From Tannerella forsythia (GTDB taxonomy: Bacteria > Bacteroidota > Bacteroidia > Bacteroidales > Tannerellaceae): a DNA stretch of 41,934 nucleotides. The notes under the pieces are model-generated. The model made no database searches. It worked only from the letters and a program-made list of their open reading frames with translations, and was not told the DNA's origin. The position numbers were made by a program, and so were the translations under genes. Shown piece after piece: positions 30,144-41,690 of the stretch. Numbering within the stretch: position 1 is the first letter of the stretch; each line of letters begins with the position of its first letter. The stretch lies in assembly GCF_003860135.1 (NCBI RefSeq), contig NZ_RQYN01000036.1, positions 1-41,934 on the forward strand, read 5' to 3'.

Positions 30144-30542
30144 CCGCGAAAACCTCAATTTCCACCACGGAAACTTTTGTCTCTGCCACGGAAACCTCAG
30201 TCTCTGCCACGGAAGCCTCAGTCTCTGCCACGGAAACTTTTGTCTCTACTGCGGAAACCTCAGTTTCTGTCATGGAAACCTCAGTTTCTGCCGCGGAAAC
30301 CTCAGTCTTTGCCGCGGAAACCTCAGTCTCTGCCACGGAAGCCTCAGTCTCTGCCGCGGAAACTTTTGTTTCTGCCGCGGAAACTTTTGTTTTTGCCACG
30401 GAAACTTTTGTTTCTGCCATGGAAACTTTTATTTCCGCCACGGAAACTTTTGTTTCTGCCATGGAAACTTTTGTTTCCGCCACGGAAACCTCAGTTTCTG
30501 CCACGGAAACTTTTGTTTCCGCCACGGAAACTTTTGTTTCCG
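30144..30542. repeat. Tandem array of nineteen 21-bp units
   Basis: Nineteen head-to-tail units of exactly 21 bp fill this segment. The plus-strand unit is CC(A/G)CGGAAAC followed by either TTTTGT or CTCAGT and then a TTTCTG-like end; the two central versions alternate irregularly along the array. As 21 is divisible by three, any frame without a stop in the unit stays open. Frames are open on both strands, so open length is not evidence for coding. On the minus strand (open frame 30136-30675) the unit encodes the heptad AETKVSV or AETEVSV, a coiled-coil-like pattern in which Lys or Glu alternates. Confidence 0.85.
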
Positions 30543-30776: not shown

Positions 30777-30784
30777 TAATTTTG
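30777..30784 (+). promoter_or_regulatory. -7 promoter element of the first B12 riboswitch transcript
   Basis: TAATTTTG followed by C is an exact TAnnTTTG match and lies 5 bases before the first paired base of the riboswitch (30789), precisely where a transcription start for the aptamer is expected. No convincing -33 TTTG is seen. Confidence 0.6.
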
Positions 30785-30788
30785 CAGC

Positions 30789-30960
30789 CGTTTTGGTGAT
30801 GCGTCGGTCATTCTGCCGTTCGCATAAAAGGGAATCCGGTCAAAATCCGGAACAGTGCCCGCTACTGTGGAACCCGTAAAAAGAAAAAGCAAACTTACAC
30901 CACTGTCGTTATTGACGGGAAGGTCGCTTTTTGGGGTGTAGTCAGGAAACCTGCCAAGCG
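30789..30960 (+). promoter_or_regulatory. Cobalamin (B12) riboswitch 1
   Basis: Clear cobalamin aptamer. The core GGGAATCCGGT...AATCCGGAAC..GTGCCCGC lies at about 30830-30865, and the B12 box AGTCAGGAAACCTGCC lies near 30940-30955. The terminal stem is formed by CGTTTTGG (30789-30796) and CCAAGCG (30954-30960). The RNA should fold with adenosylcobalamin and shut off the downstream TonB receptor when B12 is plentiful. Confidence 0.93.
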
Positions 30961-31043
30961 TAAAAGGACGAGTCTGTTCTCGGGGGCAAGAACAGCGTGA
31001 TTGGAATCGAATGATGATTTAGTTTCGGTTATAAGGCGAGAAG

Positions 31044-31072
31044 CCTGCAAGCGGTCATACCCGTTTCGCAGG
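31044..31072 (+). promoter_or_regulatory. Hairpin before the receptor start, possible riboswitch expression platform
   Basis: CCTGC-A-AGCGG (31044-31054) pairs with CCGTTTCGCAGG (31061-31072), a stable stem ending just before an ATG at 31074. Such a hairpin could mask the ribosome-binding area, in line with translational control by B12 riboswitches. No T-run follows, which argues against a terminator. Confidence 0.5.
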
Positions 31073-31103
31073 TATGTTTAGGTTATTGTTTATCGATTTT
31101 ATA

Positions 31104-33458
31104 ATGAGGATCCTCTTATTTACATTATATATATGTCTGTTCGGTGCGGAAGCGGTGGCGCAGAACAAATATGTGTTGTCCGGAACCGTCACCGATGCCA
31201 CAGGACATCCTGTCTCGATGGCGACCGTCGCGATTGAGCATACTTCGCAGGGAGCGTTTACCGACGACAAGGGACATTATACCTTGGAACTCTTGGCCGG
31301 GAAGCATATCGTTGTCGTATCTTCGGTCGGATATAAAACAGAGAGGAAGGAATTGAACATCCGAAAAAACACGAAGCAGGATTTTACGCTCGAAGAAAAT
31401 ACTGTGGTTCTGAAAGCCGTGGAGGTCTACGGCAAGACACAGGCCCAACAGGTCCGAGAGGGAGTCTATGCCGCCAATGCGCTTGATGTGAAGCCGCTTA
31501 CCAATACGATTCACAACCTGAATACGCTGGTCAACCGTACCACGGGCGTCAAAGTGCGCGAAGAGGGCGGGGTAGGGTCCGATTTCGAGCTGTCGGTCAA
31601 CGGTCTTTCGGGTAACTCCGTGCGGTATTTTATCGACGGAGTACCGATGAGCGCCAAAGGGCGCGGCATATCGCTGGCTAATTTGCCGGTCAATATCATC
31701 GACCGGGTAGAGATATACAAAGGAGTGGTGCCTTCGCATCTGGGAGGCGATGCCTTGGGGGGCGCGATTAACGTCATCACTCGAAAGGAGCGAAAAAACT
31801 ACCTCGACGTGTCGTACGGTGTGGGATCGTTTCATACGCATAAGGCCGATTTGTTCGGGCAATATGTGATGCCGAAGAGCGGTATTGTGATCCGTCCCGT
31901 CGTCGGGATGAATTATTCCAAGAACGATTACCTGATGAAAGGCGTCGAGTTGTGGGACGAGACCGAGCGACGCTTCCGGCCGTTCGACCGCAAGCGCTTC
32001 CATGACGATTATTTCTCGGTGCTGACACAGCTCGAAGCCGGGGTTACGCATCGCCCGTGGGCCGATGAATTTTTCCTTTCGGGATCGTTCTCGTCCGTAC
32101 ACAAGCAGTTGCAGACCGGTTCGATTCAAAGCATCGTATACGGCAAGGCCGAGCGCGAATCGGAAGCATGGAACGTCTCGGCACGGTATATGAAGAACGA
32201 TTTTCTGTTGCCCGGTCTCAATGCCAACCTTTCCGTATCGCACACGTGGGACCATGCGCTGACGACCGACACGGCATTCCGCAAATACAACTGGGACGGC
32301 ACCTATATCGAATCGTCGCGCAACGAAATCACGGGGCGTGACCGTACACGCCGGCATAACAAACGGCCGCTGACGACCGTGCGCGCCGGGTTCGATTACC
32401 GCATCGACGCGCGTCATGGTCTTAATCTGAATTATTTGATGAACCGCACGGGCAATGAACGATACGACGAGATCGATACCGACTTCGAACCGTCGAACGA
32501 TATTTTTACGAAGCATATTTTGGGGCTTTCGTATAATCAGCGCCTCCTGAACGATCGTTGGCAAAACTCGTTCTTCGTGAAGAACTATACGAATTATTTG
32601 AATGTCACCCAGCAGGATTTGCCGTGGATTACCGGCTCGCGCGAGAAACAGGGCGCTTCGACAAAAAACTATACGGGCTACGGACTGGCCACGCGCTATG
32701 GTTTCGGCGAAGGCTTGTCGCTCAAGGCTTCGTACGAACACAGCATGCGTCTGCCGTTGGCACGCGAATTGCTGGGCAACGGCACGACCGTCTATGCCAA
32801 CTTGCAGCTAAAGCCCGAGAGCAGCGACAATTACAACCTCGGACTGTTCGGCACGCTGAATCCCGCGCCCGGTCATCAGCTGTTTTACGAAGTGAACGGC
32901 TTTTTCCGCGACGTGAAAGACTATATCCGCGCCGTAATTTCCGAGGCCGAAGGACTGAGCCAGTACGACAATGTGGCCAGCGTGGCCATTAAAGGCATTG
33001 AGAGCGAAGTAAGATATACGTACGACGACTGGTTGCAGGTGATTGCCAACGGCAGCTACGAAGACGCCCGAAGCATGACGCGCTATTACCCCGACGGCAA
33101 GGAGATGATTACGTACAAAAACCGTGTGCCGAATCGGCCGTGGCTGTTCGGCAACGCGGAGGTGAACGTGAAGAAGCGCGACTTTCTGCTGAAAAAGAGT
33201 ACGCTGCGCGCAGGCTATCACTTCGAGTATGTGCATTGGTTTTTCCTGACGTGGGAAGGATACGGCAGCCTTGCGAGCAAGTCGCGTATCCCGTCGCAAT
33301 ATTTGCACAACGTGTCGCTTTCGATGTCGTTCGATAACGACAAATACAACGTGTCTGTTACCTGTAACAACCTGTTCGATCGTTTGGCTTACGATAACTT
33401 TAAGTTGCAGAAGCCCGGCCGGTCGTTCTTTTGCAAATTCAGAATATTTATCAACTAA
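31104..33458 (+). CDS. B12-riboswitch-controlled TonB-dependent receptor 1 (BtuB/XusA-like)
   Basis: A 784-residue outer-membrane receptor: signal peptide (MRILLFTLYICLFGAEAVAQ), carboxypeptidase-regulatory-like domain (about 22-105), plug domain (NGLSGNSVRYFIDGVPMS, then DRVEIYKGVVPSHLGGDALGGAINVITRK) and a beta-barrel ending in KFRIFIN. An upstream in-frame ATG at 31074 adds ten residues; I prefer 31104 because it starts a clean signal peptide. Control by a cobalamin riboswitch points to a corrinoid or cobalt-chelate substrate, yet the next genes (DUF4374, PepSY) look like a siderophore system. No btuFCD or corrinoid-binding BtuG gene is nearby. Confidence 0.9.
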   Translation: MRILLFTLYICLFGAEAVAQNKYVLSGTVTDATGHPVSMATVAIEHTSQGAFTDDKGHYTLELLAGKHIVVVSSVGYKTERKELNIRKNTKQDFTLEENTVVLKAVEVYGKTQAQQVREGVYAANALDVKPLTNTIHNLNTLVNRTTGVKVREEGGVGSDFELSVNGLSGNSVRYFIDGVPMSAKGRGISLANLPVNIIDRVEIYKGVVPSHLGGDALGGAINVITRKERKNYLDVSYGVGSFHTHKADLFGQYVMPKSGIVIRPVVGMNYSKNDYLMKGVELWDETERRFRPFDRKRFHDDYFSVLTQLEAGVTHRPWADEFFLSGSFSSVHKQLQTGSIQSIVYGKAERESEAWNVSARYMKNDFLLPGLNANLSVSHTWDHALTTDTAFRKYNWDGTYIESSRNEITGRDRTRRHNKRPLTTVRAGFDYRIDARHGLNLNYLMNRTGNERYDEIDTDFEPSNDIFTKHILGLSYNQRLLNDRWQNSFFVKNYTNYLNVTQQDLPWITGSREKQGASTKNYTGYGLATRYGFGEGLSLKASYEHSMRLPLARELLGNGTTVYANLQLKPESSDNYNLGLFGTLNPAPGHQLFYEVNGFFRDVKDYIRAVISEAEGLSQYDNVASVAIKGIESEVRYTYDDWLQVIANGSYEDARSMTRYYPDGKEMITYKNRVPNRPWLFGNAEVNVKKRDFLLKKSTLRAGYHFEYVHWFFLTWEGYGSLASKSRIPSQYLHNVSLSMSFDNDKYNVSVTCNNLFDRLAYDNFKLQKPGRSFFCKFRIFIN

Positions 33459-33485
33459 TTATAATTTTACATTGAACAAAACAGA

Positions 33486-34763
33486 ATGAAAACAATTCGA
33501 TTTTATGTATGGATGCTGTTCGCAGCATTGACAAGCGTAACTTTTACGGCGTGTGAGGACGATAAACCTGCGCCGAAACCCGAACCCGATCCACTGTTGG
33601 AATCTCATTTCGATATTTGGGTATCGATTGGTGAGAATGCCGGGATGGGCTCTGCCGGAACTTTATTGGTGCAAAACACGAAATCGCTCGACGCCAAGGA
33701 GCAGATTAATTTTGTGAATACCGGAGCCGATGTAACGGCTAAACTGTATCAGGAAGCCATTATCAAAGGTGCTTATTATTATCAGGTTCCTAAAGAAAAA
33801 AATCGTTTCGGGAAATATCAGATTGTAGGCAGCAAAGTGAAAACCATTGCGGAGTTTCCGTTTCAGAAGAATACGTTGAAAGACCGCCGTTATACGCATG
33901 CGTGGGTCGATGATCATACGCTGGTGTTGATGGCTGCTAACGGAAAAGCCGATAAGGTGATCTGGATCAAGGTAAATACGGACCAGATGAAGATTATTGC
34001 CGAAGGCGAACTGAATCTGCCGAAATTGCAGGGAAAAGCCGGTAAACCGGGCAAATTCAGCACATCGGGAATTGCCAGCTTCAGAAAGAGTGACGGAAAA
34101 ATCCTGTATTCATATCTGGATAACAACGATAAGGTACGTTTCTACATGGCTTTTATTAATCCGGCCGATATGTCGGTAGAGAAGACCGTGATGGAAGACC
34201 GTGCCGAGTTTATGGCCGGAACGGCTTACGGCGAACTTTTACAGAGAAAGAGTTTCTTTACGCCCGAAGGCGATTACTACCTGGCTTGCAACACCGTACT
34301 GAAAGGGGCAAAGAGCTACACCCAACAATATGGTTCATTGTTACGTATTAAGAAAGGAGCGACCGATTTCGACAAGAGCTACAAAGGATATAATTATCCG
34401 AAAGGAAAAATCGTAACCGTCGATTATATGGGCAATGAAAAGGCACTGCTTTACATTCAGGATCCCGAACATACAGGAGTAGAAAACTGGGGAGATGACT
34501 ATAACTGCTACTACGCCGTCCTCGATTTGAAGACCGACAAAGTAGAAGAGATCAAGCATGATGGTAAAGTGTTGCCTTACAGCAGCGGTACGTTCTCGCA
34601 GCGTTCAATCGTGTTGGGCGACAAAGCGTATATTGGTGTGAATCCGAAAAACGAGCAGCCTTGTGTATATATCTACGATATCAAAACGGGTAAGGTAACG
34701 AAAGGCTTGACGATTGCCAAAGGGTATCTGTTCGGTCGTATCGTGGCATTGAAAGATAAATAA
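33486..34763 (+). CDS. DUF4374 surface lipoprotein (XusB-like propeller)
   Basis: A 425-residue lipoprotein: lipobox Cys23 followed by Glu-Asp-Asp, the acidic signal for surface export in Bacteroidota, then a Pro-rich linker and a beta-propeller-like body. DUF4374 includes, as I recall, XusB of Bacteroides thetaiotaomicron, a cell-surface lipoprotein that binds siderophores for the receptor XusA. Here it follows the receptor by 27 bases and precedes a PepSY protein, the same three-gene order type as Xus. It probably captures the ligand (metal chelate or corrinoid) and hands it to receptor 1. Confidence 0.82.
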   Translation: MKTIRFYVWMLFAALTSVTFTACEDDKPAPKPEPDPLLESHFDIWVSIGENAGMGSAGTLLVQNTKSLDAKEQINFVNTGADVTAKLYQEAIIKGAYYYQVPKEKNRFGKYQIVGSKVKTIAEFPFQKNTLKDRRYTHAWVDDHTLVLMAANGKADKVIWIKVNTDQMKIIAEGELNLPKLQGKAGKPGKFSTSGIASFRKSDGKILYSYLDNNDKVRFYMAFINPADMSVEKTVMEDRAEFMAGTAYGELLQRKSFFTPEGDYYLACNTVLKGAKSYTQQYGSLLRIKKGATDFDKSYKGYNYPKGKIVTVDYMGNEKALLYIQDPEHTGVENWGDDYNCYYAVLDLKTDKVEEIKHDGKVLPYSSGTFSQRSIVLGDKAYIGVNPKNEQPCVYIYDIKTGKVTKGLTIAKGYLFGRIVALKDK

Positions 34764-34822
34764 GAGTTCATATCCATGTAGCAAGTAGTAATGTATCAAA
34801 GAGGCAACGTATTCTTTACACG

Positions 34823-34864
34823 CTACTTTGACTACTTTGACTACTTTAACTACTTTGACTACTT
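34823..34864 (+). repeat. 9-bp tandem repeat before the first PepSY gene
   Basis: CTACTTTGA units at 34823, 34832, 34841 (as CTACTTTAA), 34850 and a partial one at 34859. It lies 17 bases before the PepSY start codon within the 118-base gap, so changes in copy number would alter the leader of that gene but not its frame. Confidence 0.8.
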
Positions 34865-34881
34865 AATAAAACTGTATCGAA

Positions 34882-36345
34882 ATGAAGAAGGTAAAGGCGT
34901 TTTTCTTTTCCGTTCACCGGATATTCGGGACAATAGTCTGCGTATTCTTTTTTATGTGGTTCGTGTCGGGGCTGGTATTGATTTACCATCCGTTCCCGAA
35001 CGTGACCGGGCAACAGTTGCGCGAACGGATGGAGCCGTTGCCTTCTTCATTGCCCGATGTGGAGGCCGTGTTAGCGCGTCTGCCCGAGCCCGCCTCGAAT
35101 GTCGAGGCGGTCAGTGTGCGTCAGTTTCAGGGGCAGACGCTCTTCACCATCGAGACGGAAGACAGCACTTATGTGCGTTGCGCCGACACGTTGCAGACAG
35201 TTAGGCCCGTTACGCGTGAAACGATCGACGCCGTCGCACGACGGTGGGTCGATGCCGAGCCTGTGCGTGTCGACACGTTGCATAAACGCGACATCTGGAT
35301 CATGTACTCGCGCTACCTGAGCGAGATGCCGATCTGCAAATTTTATTACGACGATGCCGAGAAGCATGAGCTGTACATCGCTTCCCGCACGGGAGAAGTG
35401 TTGCAGTTTACCACCGCCCGTCAGCGGTTCTGGGCGTTTCTCGGAGCCATCCCGCATAAGTTTTACCTGCCTGTGCTTCGCCAACATACCGACGCATGGG
35501 TCTGGTCGCTCACCATTGGTGGGATTATTGCGCTCATTGCCGCTCTGTCCGGGTTATATGCGGGCATATACATTTTATATAAGCGTTACAAGTCACGCGG
35601 CAAATTCGGCAGTCCGTATAAGAAACACTGGTATAAGTGGCATCATATCAGCGGACTGATTTTCGGCGTTTTTCTTGTTACGTTCGCTTTCAGCGGCGCG
35701 ATGGCTTTGCAGCGCATTCCGCAGTGGGTCATCAAGACGCATGGCGACTATCGCGTCAGCGACGCGAAGTTTCGGGGGCGTCCGCTTCCGGTCGAACGTT
35801 ATGCGCTCGATTACCGCCTTCTCGCGAAGGCTTATCCCGAGCTGAAAACGGTTGAATGGTCGCATTTCCGCGATGTCCCCGTCTATGACGTGGAAACGGC
35901 CGATCGTACGGTCAGCATCGATGCTTCGGGCACTGACGTGAAAGAGTTGAACCTGACCGACAAGCAGATTGCAAAGGCTGTGCGCCATATTCACGGTGAA
36001 GAGTCGGCGCTTACGGTTTCGCTTATCGACACGTACGAAGAGTATTACCTCTCGCGAAGCGGTCGATTACCTTTGCCTGCGTATAAGGTGGAGGTCGATA
36101 ATGCGGATCGCAGCCTCTATTATGTCGATCCGGCTACGGGCGAGTTTCGTTATTTGAACCGTGCTCGCAAAGCCAAAAAATGGGTGTTCAGCGGGTTGCA
36201 CTACCTGAATATTCATTGGTTAGTGGAACGTCCGGTCTTGTGGACAATCGCTATTTGGACGTTGTGCCTTGGTGGAGCGTATGTGTCGCTGTCCGGTATC
36301 TGGCTGGGCATCAAATATCTTCGGCGAAAGATGAGGAGAATTTAA
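34882..36345 (+). CDS. PepSY-domain inner-membrane protein 1 (XusC-like)
   Basis: A 487-residue PepSY-associated transmembrane protein with four main hydrophobic segments: one at the N-terminus with a conserved His (SVHRIFGTIVCVFFFMWFVSG), a pair around 205-275 (with KWHHISGLIFGVFLVTFAFSG) and one near the C-terminus (LWTIAIWTLCLGGAYVSLSG). Periplasmic PepSY domains lie between them. Conserved His residues in the helices suggest haem b binding and trans-membrane electron transfer, as proposed for PepSY reductases of siderophore systems. It likely reduces the incoming metal chelate in the periplasm. A paralog at 40218-41690 follows receptor 2. Confidence 0.87.
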   Translation: MKKVKAFFFSVHRIFGTIVCVFFFMWFVSGLVLIYHPFPNVTGQQLRERMEPLPSSLPDVEAVLARLPEPASNVEAVSVRQFQGQTLFTIETEDSTYVRCADTLQTVRPVTRETIDAVARRWVDAEPVRVDTLHKRDIWIMYSRYLSEMPICKFYYDDAEKHELYIASRTGEVLQFTTARQRFWAFLGAIPHKFYLPVLRQHTDAWVWSLTIGGIIALIAALSGLYAGIYILYKRYKSRGKFGSPYKKHWYKWHHISGLIFGVFLVTFAFSGAMALQRIPQWVIKTHGDYRVSDAKFRGRPLPVERYALDYRLLAKAYPELKTVEWSHFRDVPVYDVETADRTVSIDASGTDVKELNLTDKQIAKAVRHIHGEESALTVSLIDTYEEYYLSRSGRLPLPAYKVEVDNADRSLYYVDPATGEFRYLNRARKAKKWVFSGLHYLNIHWLVERPVLWTIAIWTLCLGGAYVSLSGIWLGIKYLRRKMRRI

Positions 36346-36406
36346 TTGTTTATTGTCAAGGGTTGATGGTTAAGGCTTTGCTTTTTATTTTTCGTTCTTA
36401 ACTATT

Positions 36407-36460
36407 AATTTTTCACTTTTCACTTTTAATTTTTCACTTTTCACTTTTAGTTTTTCACTT
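36407..36460 (+). repeat. 21-bp direct repeat before the cbiK-like gene
   Basis: A pyrimidine-rich 21-bp unit (AATTTTTCACTTTTCACTTTT) occurs at 36407-36427 and 36428-36448, with a partial third copy to 36460. It fills much of the 131-base gap between PepSY 1 and cbiK. Low-complexity repeats of this type are common in intergenic DNA of Bacteroidales; no function is evident. Confidence 0.75.
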
Positions 36461-36476
36461 ATAAATAAGAAAGATA

Positions 36477-37412
36477 ATGAAAACGTATTTATTGATGGGT
36501 ATGCTTATGGTAATGAGTATATGCAAGGCGCATGAGGGAAGGAACTTCGTTCATTCCGACATGCTGAAAACGATGTCGGAAAACGACAAGGCGGCGATCG
36601 TAATGGTTTATTTCGGTACGACGCACGATGACACACGCGCTCTGACGATCGATCGTTTGACGGCACAAGTGCAGGAAACGTTTCCCGATTTTAAGGTGCG
36701 CGAAGCGTATACGTCGCGCACGGTGATTCAACGTCTCGCCAAAAGAGACATTGCGAAAAAGACACCGCTCCAAGAGCTCGACTGGTTGAAAAGACACGGC
36801 TACACGCATGTGATCGTACAGCCTACGACGCTGATCGAAGGCGTTGAAATGGAAGCCTTGCGTCGCGAGGTAGCCGGCGTATCGGGCGATTTTAAGGATA
36901 TCCGCGTAGGGACGCCGTTGTTGTACGCTCCCGATGACTACCGGACAGTAGCAGCCACGCTCGGCGGCTCCGAGTCGGAGAAGGGTCGGGCTGTCGTATG
37001 GGTCGGTCACGGAACGTATATGCCCGCCACGGCACAATATGCCATGCTGGGCGATGTGATGAAGGCCGAAGGAAACGAGCATCATTTCGTCGTGACGCTC
37101 GAAGGCTACCCGATGCTTTCCGATACCGAAGCGCGGATCAAGAAGAGCGGGGCCGAACGTGTGCTATTATGTCCGCTCATGTTCGTAGCCGGCGACCATG
37201 CGAAGAACGATATAGCCGGCGATATGAAAGAAGAACTTGAAGCCAAAGGCTATCAGGTAGAAACAATACTGAAAGGATTGGGAGAATATGACGGTATTCG
37301 TGCCGTATTTATCGATCATATCCGCTTCAGTCTGCATCATAAGATGACGGATATCGTAGAAAGAAAAAAGATCTATGCGACGCCCGGGTACGAATACCGG
37401 CACGACGAATAG
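36477..37412 (+). CDS. cbiK: Exported CbiK-type sirohydrochlorin cobaltochelatase
   Basis: A 311-residue protein of the CbiK chelatase family (anaerobic B12 pathway; inserts Co2+ into sirohydrochlorin). The metal ligands are recognisable: His178 (VGHGTYMP), Glu209 (VTLEGYP) and His241 (AGDHAKND), matching the His/Glu/His set of Salmonella CbiK. An N-terminal signal peptide (about residues 1-18, ending CKA) indicates export to the periplasm, as known for CbiKP of Desulfovibrio. Tetrapyrrole synthesis is cytoplasmic, so an exported chelatase presumably binds, loads or unloads a metal or tetrapyrrole arriving through the outer membrane. It lies between two receptor/PepSY sets and 17 bases before a second B12 riboswitch. 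Confidence 0.9.
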   Translation: MKTYLLMGMLMVMSICKAHEGRNFVHSDMLKTMSENDKAAIVMVYFGTTHDDTRALTIDRLTAQVQETFPDFKVREAYTSRTVIQRLAKRDIAKKTPLQELDWLKRHGYTHVIVQPTTLIEGVEMEALRREVAGVSGDFKDIRVGTPLLYAPDDYRTVAATLGGSESEKGRAVVWVGHGTYMPATAQYAMLGDVMKAEGNEHHFVVTLEGYPMLSDTEARIKKSGAERVLLCPLMFVAGDHAKNDIAGDMKEELEAKGYQVETILKGLGEYDGIRAVFIDHIRFSLHHKMTDIVERKKIYATPGYEYRHDE

Positions 37413-37428
37413 AGAGCCTATAAAACCG

Positions 37429-37593
37429 TTTGTATCGGTGCAAGTAATTGCTTAAAAGGGAATCCGGTGTGAATCCGGAGCTGTCCCCGCAGCTGTAAGT
37501 TCCATGAGCAACGAAAACGAAGGATACCACTGGCACGCCATAAAGCCGGGAAGGTTCGTTTTCGGGAACAAGTCAGAAGACCTGCCGTACAAA
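37429..37593 (+). promoter_or_regulatory. Cobalamin (B12) riboswitch 2
   Basis: A textbook cobalamin aptamer: AAAGGGAATCCGGTGTGAAT then CCGGAGCTGTCCCCGCAGC from about 37455, and the B12 box AGTCAGAAGACCTGCCG at 37571-37587. The terminal stem is TTTGTA (37429-37434) with TACAAA (37588-37593). I find no Bacteroides promoter in the 16 bases between cbiK and the aptamer, so it may regulate an internal part of the transcript from riboswitch 1. From 37594 to 37757 no gene or clear hairpin platform was identified. Confidence 0.94.
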
Positions 37594-37757
37594 TAGATAA
37601 CATCAGATAGCTTTCGGGTAGAAAAGCGAATGAGGAAAAAATGCGTCCGTAGCGTATGCCGGACCACACTTCATATTCTTCACCATTCGACGCCACACGC
37701 CGAAGCTATGCTATGCAGAATAAAAGAAAACAGTTATTTTAATAGTATTAGTTTTTT

Positions 37758-40100
37758 ATGAGAATCAAAAGTATTACGTTATGTGCTGTGCTTTTCGGTG
37801 CGTTATGTACCGCGCAGGCACAGGACCAGAAAGGTTACACGAACTTTCAGGACACCACCTTTCATCTCGACGAAGTTTCGATAACGGGGGCTCAGCAAAA
37901 GAAAGTATCCGTGATGAAACTCGACGTGCCGGCGTCGTTTCTGCCGGTATCGACCAACAGCTTGCCTTCGAAGGTGCTCGAACACCGCGGTATCCGTAAC
38001 ATTCAGGACGCTGTGCGTTTCTTGCCCGGCGTACGTGTACAAACCTCGTACGGGGCGTTTCAACAGATTTCGATCCGTGGGTTCGACCACTCCATCGTGA
38101 TGGTCGACGGGGTACGTGATGAACGTTCGTCGATCAACAACTCCTACCCGTTCATGGATCTCTCGTCGATCGAGAGCATCGAACTCCTCAAAGGGCCGGC
38201 ATCGGTGCTTTACGGACAGTCGGCCGTGGGCGGTGTACTCAACATCGTCCGTAAGGCGCCTTCTGAAAAGCAAAAAGTCGATGCGCGCATCGCTTACGGA
38301 AGTTATTACAATCTGGAGACGACGCTCGGTTTCGGAGGCAAACTTGCAGGGCCGCTCAATTATTTCGCGAACTTCAATTATCAGACGCAGGAAGGCTGGC
38401 GCGATAATGCCATGAGACGTTTGTCGGGGTATGTAGCCTTGGGAGGCAAGCTGACCCAGGCCGATGAGCTGGATATCCGTATCGCTGCTCACCGCGATTA
38501 TTATCCGACCGAAATCGGTCTCCCCGATGTGATGGCTGCCGATATTTACAACACGGCCGATAACTCGAAGTACCTCAGCAAAGGGGATATGTTGCCCGGG
38601 TTAGACCGAAAGGCCCGTTATAACAGCGAATCGGATTTTATGTATAACCGTAATTTCAACGCTTCGCTTATGTGGAAACATACGTTTAGCGATGCCGCCA
38701 AACTGATGAATAAGTTTTCGTACACGAACGACGATATCGACTATTTCGGTACCGAAGACCTGGCCTATCTGACGAGCGAAGAACCGATCTATTCCCACTA
38801 TTATATGAAAGGAAAGAAGAAAGTATATATTTCGCTCGATTCGCTTCGTTATGATTTCCCGTTGCGCTTTTCGCACATGGCGCAGACATACAACAATCAG
38901 TTGGAGCTGAACGGAAAGTTTTCGACCGGAAACATGAAGCACAATTATCTGGCGGGATATTCGCTGATTGCCCTGATTCGTGATTCATACAGCGGTTATG
39001 ACTTGGGAAAGAATGTCTATGGACCCGGTCTGACCGGACGAGGTACCGTTCGTAATCCGCACAGTATCGGCTGGATGGAAACCAATTTCGGTAAAGTCTC
39101 CGTTCAACGTACCCAAATGCACGGGTTCTACCTGCAAGACTTGGTTGAATTCAGCGATAAGCTGAAAGTGTTGCTCGCGGCACGTTACGACTTGTACAGC
39201 TATAAGCGCGTAGCCGGTGTGCCGACCATCAACGGGCAACGCAGCTACGAGATGCCGGCCGATACGCTTTTCAGTCGTGTAACGACCGGAGCGTTCACGT
39301 ATCGTATCGGTGCCGTTTATTTGCCTGTCGAGCAGCTTTCGCTCTATGCTTCGATCGGTTCGTACTTCAAACCGATTGTCAGCTTTTATCGCGACGATGT
39401 ACGCTACTTCGACCGTCACGGTAAAGAATTTTTCCCTACGAAAAACGGCAAAGTATTCGATCCCGAGCAGGGTTTCCAGATCGAAGCAGGCGCACGCTAC
39501 ACACTGGCCGAGAAGCTCGAAGCCAATGTCAGTCTGTTTTATATCAACAAAAACAATATCCAATATACGTTGGGAAACAAAGGCGATATCGTCAAAGGCG
39601 ATACGTTGGGGAAAGCGATTTTGGGGCAGGTAGGCCGTATGGACTCGAAAGGATTTGATGTCGAGCTGACGTACAAGCCGATCGTCGGAATGTCGCTGAC
39701 AGCCGGATACGGTTATACCGACGCGCGTGTGCGCGAGGTCGCCGACAATCCGTACCTCGAAAGCTACCGTCTGAAAGGAAAACAATATGCCCGCATTCCC
39801 AAACATACATTCTATATCTATGGAGACTATGAAGTGGCCGACGGGATATTGAAAGGTTGGGGAGCAAACTTCGACGTGACCTATCAGGATAAGGTCTTCC
39901 GTAATGCCGACAATACGACATCGTTCGATGCTTATTGGTTGGCTAATGCCGGCCTTTCGTACCAGATGAAGAATAACGTTCGTTTGGGATTGAATGTAAA
40001 CAACTTGTTCGATCAGGATTATTTCAATCAGTCGCTCGGTAACCAGTTTGTGCCCAGCATGCCGCGTAACTTCTTACTTTCGGCTTCGTATTCGTTTTAA
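37758..40100 (+). CDS. B12-riboswitch-controlled TonB-dependent receptor 2 (siderophore-receptor-like)
   Basis: A 780-residue receptor with signal peptide (to about residue 21, ending AQAQ), no carboxypeptidase-like extension, a plug domain (KVLEHRGIRNIQDAVRFLPGVRV, SIRGFDHSIVMVDGVRD, SIESIELLKGPASVLYGQSAVGGVLNIVRKAP) and a barrel ending in ASYSF. The plug is closest in pattern to ferric siderophore receptors of the FhuA/FpvA type, rather than BtuB. It is preceded by a B12 riboswitch and followed by the second PepSY gene. The probable substrate is a cobalt-containing chelate, by inference from regulation. Confidence 0.9.
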   Translation: MRIKSITLCAVLFGALCTAQAQDQKGYTNFQDTTFHLDEVSITGAQQKKVSVMKLDVPASFLPVSTNSLPSKVLEHRGIRNIQDAVRFLPGVRVQTSYGAFQQISIRGFDHSIVMVDGVRDERSSINNSYPFMDLSSIESIELLKGPASVLYGQSAVGGVLNIVRKAPSEKQKVDARIAYGSYYNLETTLGFGGKLAGPLNYFANFNYQTQEGWRDNAMRRLSGYVALGGKLTQADELDIRIAAHRDYYPTEIGLPDVMAADIYNTADNSKYLSKGDMLPGLDRKARYNSESDFMYNRNFNASLMWKHTFSDAAKLMNKFSYTNDDIDYFGTEDLAYLTSEEPIYSHYYMKGKKKVYISLDSLRYDFPLRFSHMAQTYNNQLELNGKFSTGNMKHNYLAGYSLIALIRDSYSGYDLGKNVYGPGLTGRGTVRNPHSIGWMETNFGKVSVQRTQMHGFYLQDLVEFSDKLKVLLAARYDLYSYKRVAGVPTINGQRSYEMPADTLFSRVTTGAFTYRIGAVYLPVEQLSLYASIGSYFKPIVSFYRDDVRYFDRHGKEFFPTKNGKVFDPEQGFQIEAGARYTLAEKLEANVSLFYINKNNIQYTLGNKGDIVKGDTLGKAILGQVGRMDSKGFDVELTYKPIVGMSLTAGYGYTDARVREVADNPYLESYRLKGKQYARIPKHTFYIYGDYEVADGILKGWGANFDVTYQDKVFRNADNTTSFDAYWLANAGLSYQMKNNVRLGLNVNNLFDQDYFNQSLGNQFVPSMPRNFLLSASYSF

Positions 40101-40217
40101 ATGGACAACGTAAAACGCATAACCCATTCTTTACTCTGAAGAGAGGTGGCGGTATCGGAGTTTTCGGCACTGCCGCTTCTTCTTCTTTTGTTTCATTCAT
40201 ATCATAATTCAAACACC

Positions 40218-41690
40218 ATGTTTTCACGTATCATGTTTACCATTCACCGGGTGCTGGGCACGTTGCTCAGCGTCCTGTTTCTCGTGTGGTTTGTGTCGGG
40301 CATCGTGATGATATATCACGGATTTCCGTCGGCCGATCGCGACGAGAAAGCGGCCAAATTGGAGCCGCTCGGTACCGATCTTCCATCAGTCGATGAGCTG
40401 GCGCGACGCTTGCCCGACACTTGTACGATCGACGGATTGTCGGTCAGCCGTTATCTCGGACAGACTGTCTACGAGATTCGCAGCGGCAAAGAAACGTTTC
40501 GTCTGCCGGCCGACAGCGCCGAGGAGCTGCCTGTCATCGACGGAGCATATATCGCTCGTGTAGCGGCGCTCTGGTGCAGTACTCCCGTCAGCCGGATCGA
40601 TTCGCTTCGCGCCTTAGACCAGTGGATACCCTTCGGACGGTTGAAGGAAGAGTTCCCGATTTATAAGTTTCATTTTGCCGATGACAACGGCACCGAGCTG
40701 TACATCTCGTCGCGCAGCGGTGAGGTGTTGCAATATACGACACGCTCCGAACGACTCTGGGCGTGGGTCGGAGCGGTCCCTCACTGGGTTTACTTTACCT
40801 TGCTGAGGCAAGATCGCGAATTGTGGATCAAAACCGTTATTTGGCTTTCGGGTATCGGATCTATCATGGTCATAGCCGGTCTTTATGTAGGCATTTACGT
40901 CAGTGTGAAGTCGCGCCGGCGGAAAAAGAAATGGTTCCCGTATAAGAAGAAATGGTATTACTGGCATCATGTGACGGGGATCGTCTTCGGTCTCTTCGCG
41001 CTGACGTGGGCATTCAGCGGGATGATGTCACTCACCGATCCGCCCGAATGGCTCGTGAAGGAGCATCAAAAATATCCTGTTCGTCAGACGATGGAAGCTC
41101 TGGCTCCGTCTCCTACTGCTTATCCGTTCGATTACAAAGCGCTGATCAGTCAGTACGACGGACGTCTGACCGAGATACGCTGGTCACACTTTTTCGGCTT
41201 ACCTACGTATGAAATCGTGCTCTCCGGAGCCGAACGGCTGACCATCGACGCTACGACCGCCCAACCACTTGCCTTGAAGGAAGCGCAGGCTACCGAGGCG
41301 GTGCGCAGGATTCACGGCGATGACGCCGTCATCCGCACCGAACAGCTTAATGAGTACGACACGTACTACCTTGATCGGAAACGTCGGTTGGAGCTGCCTG
41401 TCTGGAAAGTCAGCGTTGAGAACGCCGATGGAACATGCTACTATATTACTCCGTCCGACGGTCGTTTGCGCGAATATAACACGCGTCGTCGTACACGTTT
41501 CTGGATGTATTCCGCTCTGCATGCGCTGCGCTTCAAATTCTTGACAGAAAATCCCGTACTCTGGACGACGGTGATGTGGACACTGCTGCTTGGCGGCACA
41601 TTCGTATCATTGAGTGGCGTGGTGCTGGGAGTAAAATATATCGTGCGTCTCTTTCGGCGTAAAGCAAGGCATACTGCCGGTCATAAGTAG
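40218..41690 (+). CDS. PepSY-domain inner-membrane protein 2
   Basis: A 490-residue paralog of the protein at 34882-36345 with the same layout: first helix with His (FTIHRVLGTLLSVLFLVWFVSG), central pair (with YWHHVTGIVFGLFALTWAFSG) and a final helix (VLWTTVMWTLLLGGTFVSLSG). The frame is open from 40146, but the extra 24 residues do not resemble the paralog; 40218 gives the matching N-terminus. It follows receptor 2 by 117 bases. The role is probably reduction of the metal chelate imported by receptor 2. Confidence 0.88.
   Translation: MFSRIMFTIHRVLGTLLSVLFLVWFVSGIVMIYHGFPSADRDEKAAKLEPLGTDLPSVDELARRLPDTCTIDGLSVSRYLGQTVYEIRSGKETFRLPADSAEELPVIDGAYIARVAALWCSTPVSRIDSLRALDQWIPFGRLKEEFPIYKFHFADDNGTELYISSRSGEVLQYTTRSERLWAWVGAVPHWVYFTLLRQDRELWIKTVIWLSGIGSIMVIAGLYVGIYVSVKSRRRKKKWFPYKKKWYYWHHVTGIVFGLFALTWAFSGMMSLTDPPEWLVKEHQKYPVRQTMEALAPSPTAYPFDYKALISQYDGRLTEIRWSHFFGLPTYEIVLSGAERLTIDATTAQPLALKEAQATEAVRRIHGDDAVIRTEQLNEYDTYYLDRKRRLELPVWKVSVENADGTCYYITPSDGRLREYNTRRRTRFWMYSALHALRFKFLTENPVLWTTVMWTLLLGGTFVSLSGVVLGVKYIVRLFRRKARHTAGHK

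Follow-up and report, generated by a model that had tools for sequence, protein, structure and literature searches.

Gene Order and Aptamers

A cluster of six genes and two cobalamin (B12) aptamers, all on the + strand, lies at the downstream end of a 41,934-nucleotide stretch of Tannerella forsythia DNA. This stretch (the window) corresponds to contig C156 in the 99.98% complete, 3.3 Mb genome of an oral Tannerella. The order is aptamer, TonB-dependent receptor (TBDR1), XusB-like lipoprotein, PepSY protein (PepSY1), class II chelatase (CbiK), aptamer, a second TonB-dependent receptor (TBDR2) and a second PepSY protein (PepSY2). A first-pass annotation, made from the letters of the window, had reported two aptamers, each before a TonB-dependent receptor, and six genes in this order, and searches with Rfam, Pfam and NCBIfam models confirmed both points.

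30777..30972, + strand, cobalamin aptamer 1, 5' of TBDR1 (RF00174, 82.8 bits, E 4.5e-19)
31074..33458 (alternative start 31104), + strand, TBDR1, XusA-type TonB-dependent receptor (PF00593/PF07715)
33486..34763, + strand, XusB-like lipoprotein (phmmer and family profile against XusB)
34882..36345, + strand, PepSY1, PepSY_TM inner-membrane protein (PF03929, 2e-17)
36477..37412, + strand, CbiK-type class II chelatase with signal peptide (PF06180, 5e-73)
37418..37603, + strand, cobalamin aptamer 2, 5' of TBDR2 (RF00174, 116.1 bits, E 1.3e-28)
37758..40100, + strand, TBDR2, siderophore/metallophore-type TonB-dependent receptor (TIGR01783, above cut-off)
40218..41690, + strand, PepSY2, PepSY_TM protein (PF03929, 7e-12)

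The intergenic gaps are, in cluster order, 27, 118, 131, 345 and 117 bases, the 345-base gap containing aptamer 2. For PepSY2 the ATG at 40218 was preferred over the mechanically called GTG at 40146. Both aptamers are well above the RF00174 gathering score of 31.5, and the genome has six RF00174 matches in all. These scores support the control of the cluster by B12 that had been proposed, and both sites are predicted to act by repression. Aptamer 2 is missing from T. forsythia ATCC 43037 (locus L008). Both ends of the intergenic region at 37413-37757 of the window match that strain and abut there (L008 9934-9998), like a clean deletion of the aptamer. The same strain has an extra open frame of 160 residues between TBDR2 and PepSY2 (L008 12384-12863), where the window has a gap of 117 bases.

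Receptors, Lipoprotein and PepSY Proteins

The cluster resembles the Xus xenosiderophore system of Bacteroides (XusA, XusB, XusC), in which a receptor, a lipoprotein and a PepSY inner-membrane protein share one operon. The siderophore-like build that the first-pass annotation had recognized was upheld, as all the Xus-type parts were matched: an XusA-type receptor, an XusB/DUF4374 lipoprotein and a reductase-like PepSY protein, the last in two copies (PF03929). It departs from Xus in the B12 aptamer ahead of it, in the exported CbiK and the additional receptor that come after, and, in some relatives, in its continuation into corrin genes. Structures of XusB and the reductase role of PepSY proteins have been described (PMC13142918).

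The alignment of TBDR1 with 9gbc_A, an XusA-type receptor, covers residues 12-783 of 784 (E 2.1e-122). The lipoprotein begins with FTAC followed by acidic residues and is probably located on the cell surface. By phmmer it matched XusB (9hqe) with an E value of 2e-8, and its family profile reached XusB (E 4e-13) and four chains named DUF4374. Its earlier designation as a DUF4374 protein was therefore sustained by the profile, but not by Pfam, which at E<=10 gave no match besides a sub-threshold DUF6841. Its AlphaFold model (pLDDT 80) has beta strands all along. On these matches the protein is classed as a distant homologue of XusB.

The profile matches of TBDR2 include receptors for enantio-pyochelin as well as FhuA, FoxA and CntO. 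Neither receptor in the cluster reached the cut-off of the B12-receptor model TIGR01779 (599.7 bits), TBDR1 scoring 86.9 and TBDR2 79.2 bits, but the genome's own BtuB-like protein scored only 70.0 bits, which leaves this cut-off with little weight in the group. In the alignment of PepSY proteins (15 rows), His 10, 189, 250 and 435 are invariant, a pattern that presumably fits the haem-bearing PepSY reductases. A PepSY profile found no match among solved structures at E<=0.01.

The Exported Chelatase

CbiK scored 246 bits with PF06180, for which the curated cut-off is 26.2, and 171.5 bits with the NCBIfam equivalog NF047852, below the cut-off of 400. Residues H178, E209 and H241, which we take to be the catalytic His/Glu/His positions of CbiK, are kept in 15/15 aligned orthologues. 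By inspection and hydrophobicity, with no trained predictor, the N-terminus was read as a hydrophobic signal sequence without a lipobox, and a hydrophobic stretch is present there in all 15 orthologues. Together with the PF06180 match this bears out the earlier description of CbiK as an exported protein. Its predicted location would differ from that of a classical cytoplasmic biosynthetic enzyme.

The nearest named relatives of CbiK are in Tannerella sp. S17M_Sa_42 (97%) and T. forsythia ATCC 43037 (93%). Its model (pLDDT 87) gave a TM score of 0.89 (target length) to the periplasmic CbiK of Desulfovibrio vulgaris and to CbiK of Salmonella Typhimurium. The former (2xvx, 2xvz) is likewise an exported class II cobaltochelatase, with 33% identity to the window protein. 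FetB of Porphyromonas gingivalis, also called IhtB (9b86), is the third nearest solved protein; it too is an exported CbiK-type protein, and similar lipoproteins adjoin TonB-dependent receptors in several loci. Unlike the window CbiK, the FetB-type proteins mostly have a lipobox-like start, belong to another clade, and are found whether or not the genome has HemC. In the QSLH motif the CbiK orthologues carry Thr, Asn or Ser in place of His, unlike all three solved relatives. At the position of residue 96 of D. vulgaris CbiK, presumably its haem-ligand His, the 15 CbiK rows have E, K or T, never His; FetB also lacks a His there. A His at the mature N-terminus was considered as a metal brace. 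It follows the likely cleavage site in 10/15 orthologues, though not in L051, L054, L055, L056 and L057, and was dropped as a general feature.

B12 Genes of the Host Genome

The genome encodes the anaerobic corrin-ring enzymes CbiL, CbiJ-CbiD, CbiG-CbiF, CbiE-CbiT and CbiH-CbiC, together with CbiB and CbiP. CbiL, at 142.5 bits, is under the NCBIfam cut-off of 163, yet that model is its best match. HemC was not found in the genome, nor was SUMT above cut-off; four weaker SUMT matches are corrin and RsmI-type methylases already identified. With CbiL and the later enzymes present but neither HemC nor SUMT, the ring must be obtained at the level of precorrin-2/sirohydrochlorin or later. In this respect the genome resembles the tetrapyrrole precursor salvagers, which have the corrin-ring pathway without the early tetrapyrrole genes (Shelton 2018, PMC6461909). 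For the early genes, that profile was found here on HemC and SUMT only. Besides the window CbiK, no CbiK or CbiX was above cut-off in the genome (PF06180, PF01903), a further point of difference from the D. vulgaris enzyme, as is the absence of HemC. The sole CobN-like protein was considered as the real chelatase. It lies behind hmuY- and hmuR-like genes and below the CobN cut-offs, and was taken for HmuS.

The four aptamers outside the cluster precede an operon encoding BtuB-like, propeller and periplasmic-binding proteins (L045), btuFCD-like genes (L046), an anaerobic ribonucleotide reductase, and an operon of the HpaB family. The absence of an ABC importer or a BtuG-like gene, claimed previously, thus holds for the cluster but not for the genome, which has both L045 and L046 elsewhere. 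The cluster differs from the BtuB-BtuG B12 importer in having neither the BtuG lipoprotein nor BtuFCD genes, and in its receptor scores with TIGR01779. The host genome appears to be already equipped for B12 uptake, and the presence of uptake genes elsewhere argues that the cluster serves something other than B12 uptake.

Distribution of the Chelatase

The survey of the genes used a sample of 393 genomes from the order, taken out of a larger group, and 326 of the sample are at least 90% complete. The CbiK query found proteins in 23 genomes at E<=1e-10, and the window type was defined by E<1e-70. CbiD was above cut-off in 26 genomes and HemC in 68. The absence of HemC was rejected as a striking feature by itself, as 325 of the 393 lack it; it is informative only within the 26 CbiD genomes, 12 with HemC and 14 without. 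Window-type CbiK is present in ten genomes, all of which have CbiD and lack HemC, and nine of which have no SUMT above cut-off. The Fisher test for this CbiK against HemC gave 2e-4, with the genomes treated, here and in the two tests below, as independent, which they are not.

PF06180 and SUMT were searched in 28 genomes, the 26 with CbiD plus G238 and G377, and the N-termini of the chelatases were read. Among the CbiD genomes, a non-exported CbiK or CbiX was found in none of the 14 without HemC versus 9 of the 12 with it (7e-5 on the same assumption). The non-exported forms are of the CbiX type in G015, G064, G082, G132, G186, G219 and G275 and of the CbiK type in G087 and G143. In G219 the start was set at an inner ATG just before the CbiX core; an earlier possible start would include a hydrophobic stretch. 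Besides its exported CbiK, the HemC-less G281 has a truncated C-terminal remnant, and the second chelatase copies in G059 and G106 are lipoproteins. SUMT was above cut-off in 14 of the 28 genomes, the 13 that bear HemC and G277. Pfam placed CbiM-type cobalt importers beside CbiX in four HemC-bearing corrin loci (G015, G064, G132 and G219); the CbiM motif did not occur in 477 kb (summed, partly overlapping) from the 14 HemC-less genomes, versus four occurrences in 347 kb from HemC-bearing ones, both figures referring to stretches and not to whole genomes.

In a tree of 36 CbiK-type proteins the window type forms one clade, with support 100/100, apart from the FetB type. Besides the named proteins the clade has 11 members, all from genomes without HemC, and it may have had a single origin in a lineage that lacked HemC. 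One of the 11, G377, was left out of the count above by the E<1e-70 line, and G018 was not counted, its CbiD match being below cut-off. Within genus g90, the HemC-bearing G087 has a CbiK-type protein without a signal sequence and the HemC-less G189 and G343 have exported ones.

These distributions bear on where the enzyme works. The later corrin-ring enzymes are cytoplasmic by family, and in a genome with no second CbiK or CbiX an internal start or inefficient export might leave CbiK in the cytoplasm, to act on a ring imported unmetallated. The hydrophobic N-terminus is kept in 15/15 orthologues, while forms without it are available in the HemC-bearing G087 and G143, and we regard this explanation as very unlikely. 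The exported clade tracks the HemC/SUMT gap, which indicates that CbiK most likely acts chemically on a scavenged ring outside the cytoplasm. The view in the first-pass annotation that it merely received cobalt is modified accordingly by the 10/10 association with HemC-less genomes.

TBDR2 and the Gene Neighbourhoods

TBDR2 orthologues were defined by E<=1e-90, and as the two best candidates per genome were scored, more distant copies could be missed. They were found in 12 of the 393 genomes. All 12 have CbiD, against a background of 26/393 (Fisher test 4e-16, on the assumption given above); five have HemC and seven do not. The link is not universal, since 14 of the 26 CbiD genomes have no TBDR2 at this threshold. 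Of the 11 other genomes with TBDR2, 10 have a PepSY gene adjacent to it. In the exception, G087, the stretch examined shows no aptamer and no PepSY gene at TBDR2. In the other four HemC-bearing genomes the aptamer and the TBDR2-PepSY pair are free-standing, with no CbiK beside them, and in the HemC-less G277 the pair has no aptamer at gathering score. As TBDR2 occurs in ring-makers with or without their own ring precursor, its cargo would be cobalt.

The simplest use of such a receptor would be plain cobalt acquisition: both receptors would take up cobalt chelates, the PepSY proteins would reduce them, and the exported CbiK would be a periplasmic cobalt holder, the ring arising by another route. 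TBDR2 follows CbiD whatever the state of HemC, is of the siderophore/metallophore type, and stands with its PepSY gene alone under an aptamer in HemC-bearing genomes. This account leaves unexplained both the confinement of window-type exported CbiK to HemC-less genomes and its intact catalytic positions, and it gives no ring source for a genome without HemC and SUMT. We consider it unlikely. Cobalt acquisition had been proposed in the first-pass annotation. The 12/12 association with CbiD, including five HemC-bearing genomes that would need metal and not ring, agrees with that part; the gap at HemC and SUMT in the host, tracked by CbiK, had been missed.

A further possibility is that the cluster takes up or repairs corrinoids, complete or damaged; damaged corrinoids were among the cargoes suggested in the first-pass annotation. 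The receptors, under B12 control, would import cobamides that BtuB refuses, and CbiK would restore lost cobalt; a loading of cobalt into acquired cobalamin has been speculated for Chlorobaculum chelatases encoded beside a cobalamin receptor (PMC8620254). An importer of this kind should not be limited to ring-makers, as TBDR2 is, and the genome has separate BtuB-like and BtuFCD-like loci. Both receptors fall far under the B12-receptor cut-offs, though so does the genome's BtuB-like protein. The probability of this explanation appears to be very low.

A B12 aptamer lies upstream of the operon in 10/10 window-type CbiK loci, and cobJ is next on the same strand in seven (G133, G372, G165, G106, G277, G328 and G343), with gaps that reach about 0.8 kb and, in G106, one frame in between. 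TBDR2-PepSY2 adjoins CbiK in six genomes (G000, G133, G372, G165, G290 and G106) and TBDR1-XusB in five (G000, G277, G328, G189 and G343). The TBDR1 orthologues in G277, G328, G189 and G343 have 44-54% identity; in G290 the orthologue (52%) and its XusB gene have an aptamer of their own and lie ahead of cobJ. In G133, G372, G165 and G106, CbiK is preceded by an HmuR-like receptor. Within the stretches examined, though not genome-wide, one of the two receptor types, TBDR1-XusB or HmuR-like, occupies the place at CbiK in each genome. Among named relatives, Butyricimonas (L010) has aptamer, HmuR-like receptor, CbiK, PepSY and cobJ, with a divergent aptamer-TBDR2-PepSY2 group; Parabacteroides (L009) has aptamer, CbiK and cobJ; and in Bacteroides caecigallinarum (L011) CbiK is near btuFCD-like and corrin genes, with no aptamer at gathering score in the stretch examined.

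The gene neighbourhoods also bear on a haem or xenosiderophore iron system placed under B12 control, in which TBDR1, the XusB-like lipoprotein and PepSY1 would constitute a normal Xus system, with CbiK binding haem or exchanging metal in the manner of FetB. The homology to XusA and XusB and the rank of FetB among the solved proteins are in keeping with such a system, and FetB has been reported to make Mn-protoporphyrin (PMC13402209). An iron system does not account for the aptamers in all ten loci or for cobJ in seven. CbiK belongs to a clade apart from the FetB type and has no lipobox, an hmuYRS-like operon sits elsewhere in the genome, and CbiK has no His corresponding to residue 96 of the D. 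vulgaris enzyme, although FetB lacks it too. We judge this explanation improbable.

Proposed Periplasmic Cobalt Loading of a Scavenged Ring

The cluster very probably acts in corrin synthesis. Judging from its genes and their distribution, there is about an even chance that it is a B12-repressed module which supplies the cobalt-loading step from outside the cytoplasm. TBDR2 and PepSY2 probably serve cobalt uptake, and metallation of a scavenged ring in the periplasm is slightly favored. TBDR1 and the XusB-like lipoprotein are put forward tentatively as the ring receptor. The grades given to these four parts are judgements, not computed values.

The mechanism may be pictured as follows. When B12 is short, the aptamers would permit expression of the genes. 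Cobalt, as a chelate, would pass the outer membrane through TBDR2 and then be freed with the aid of PepSY2 and perhaps PepSY1, probably by reduction. The ring precursor, of the sirohydrochlorin type and made by other organisms, would enter by way of TBDR1 and the XusB-like lipoprotein, which is the least certain step; in other genomes an HmuR-like receptor is found in this position. The exported CbiK would then put cobalt into the scavenged ring in the periplasm. As the only class II chelatase of the genome is exported, a meeting of ring and cobalt in that compartment is the simplest account. Transport of the cobalt-tetrapyrrole into the cell, for which the BtuFCD-like transporter under B12 control is a possible carrier, would deliver it to CbiL, CbiHC, CbiGF, CbiET and CbiJD. 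The gene set, the aptamers, the export signal, the catalytic residues, the ring enzymes, the absence of HemC and of SUMT above cut-off, and the co-distributions are observed; the substrates, the direction of transport, periplasmic catalysis and the inner-membrane carrier are proposed from sequence.

Several observations weigh against periplasmic loading of a scavenged ring. TBDR1 and the lipoprotein are similar to true siderophore systems, and a literature search, which covered open-licence papers, found no report of sirohydrochlorin import. The HemC-bearing G029, G335 and G379 show exported CbiK-type proteins only, and in the tree the CbiK of G087, which has no signal sequence, falls on the FetB side, so that the contrast within genus g90 is no simple switch. 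G105 has CbiD but neither HemC nor any CbiK or CbiX match. G277 has a SUMT (G277:C16:26342-27055, 316 bits) despite lacking HemC, and may scavenge uroporphyrinogen III; the HemC-less G165 has a SUMT-like protein just below cut-off (160.7 versus 185 bits). G377, without CbiD or HemC, has a chelatase of the window-type clade (E 4e-53) without corrin synthesis. The ten CbiK genomes, forming a single clade, are not independent, and 325 of the 393 genomes lack HemC in any case; with one origin of the clade and common loss of HemC, the statistics are softer than they look.

Some of these genomes have further features. G105 (L136), of the same family as the host, has corrin genes with HemC and SUMT above cut-off both absent. 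The SUMT-like protein of G165 (L149 4106-4846) adjoins a frame resembling a TonB-dependent receptor. Some corrin operons hold a second exported chelatase: in G189 and G343, cobI and further corrin genes are followed by genes for a FetB-like lipoprotein and an HmuR-like receptor (L139 2916-11589; L140 8663-15504), and two FetB-like genes lie beside cobI in G059 (L137 5001-9953).

A set of Bacteroidales may, then, have moved cobalt insertion outside the cytoplasm. Cobalt and an unfinished ring would arrive by two separate B12-controlled receptors, the exported CbiK would join them in the periplasm, and the product would be imported; we hold the chances of this fuller scheme to be a little below even. 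The first-pass annotation was partly supported: its observation was right and its interpretation half right.

Relation to Earlier Work

The cluster bears on the old puzzle of the source of precorrin-2 in P. gingivalis. The original paper on this organism is reportedly that of Roper in 2000. Tetrapyrrole precursor salvagers were later defined as a group, and the absence of the steps to precorrin-2 in P. gingivalis was noted from earlier work (Shelton 2018, PMC6461909). No salvage receptor or chelatase is named in the available text of that paper; a B12-controlled candidate set is proposed here. Six B12-requiring strains, with four Bacteroidales species among them, hold complete sets of the B12 genes that were counted, and missing precorrin-2 genes were suggested as a reason for their B12 need (Rodionov 2019, PMC6593275). 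If the present proposal is true, it would explain B12 synthesis in genomes with the corrin pathway but without precorrin-2 synthesis. Such species would be neither plain producers nor plain auxotrophs, and would finish rings made by their neighbours.

According to the available text of a 2021 review, no cobalt-specific outer-membrane receptor had been confirmed; the text notes, for Novosphingobium, a TonB receptor that adjoins cobalt genes and is preceded by a B12 aptamer (PMC7689651). If true, the proposal would provide such a receptor, and TBDR2 is a concrete candidate. Hmu-like operons led by a B12 aptamer have been described in B. fragilis (PMC10100974). The literature search met no paper describing the gene set of the cluster among open-licence papers.

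Other Aptamers and Repeats

Two of the B12 aptamers outside the cluster precede genes that possibly encode B12-independent substitutes. One lies before the anaerobic ribonucleotide reductase (L047) and the other before the HpaB-family operon (L048 4377-6311), the first protein of which was taken for 4-hydroxybutyryl-CoA dehydratase. An aptamer before 4-hydroxybutyryl-CoA dehydratase has been reported in Tannerella transcripts that are raised in periodontitis (PMC7160235). Arrays of 21-base repeats, of about 18 and about 20 copies, occur in the window (30165-30540) and in L048 (3662-4088), with the common core CCACGGAAA. They stop 240-290 bases upstream of two of the six B12 aptamers of the genome.

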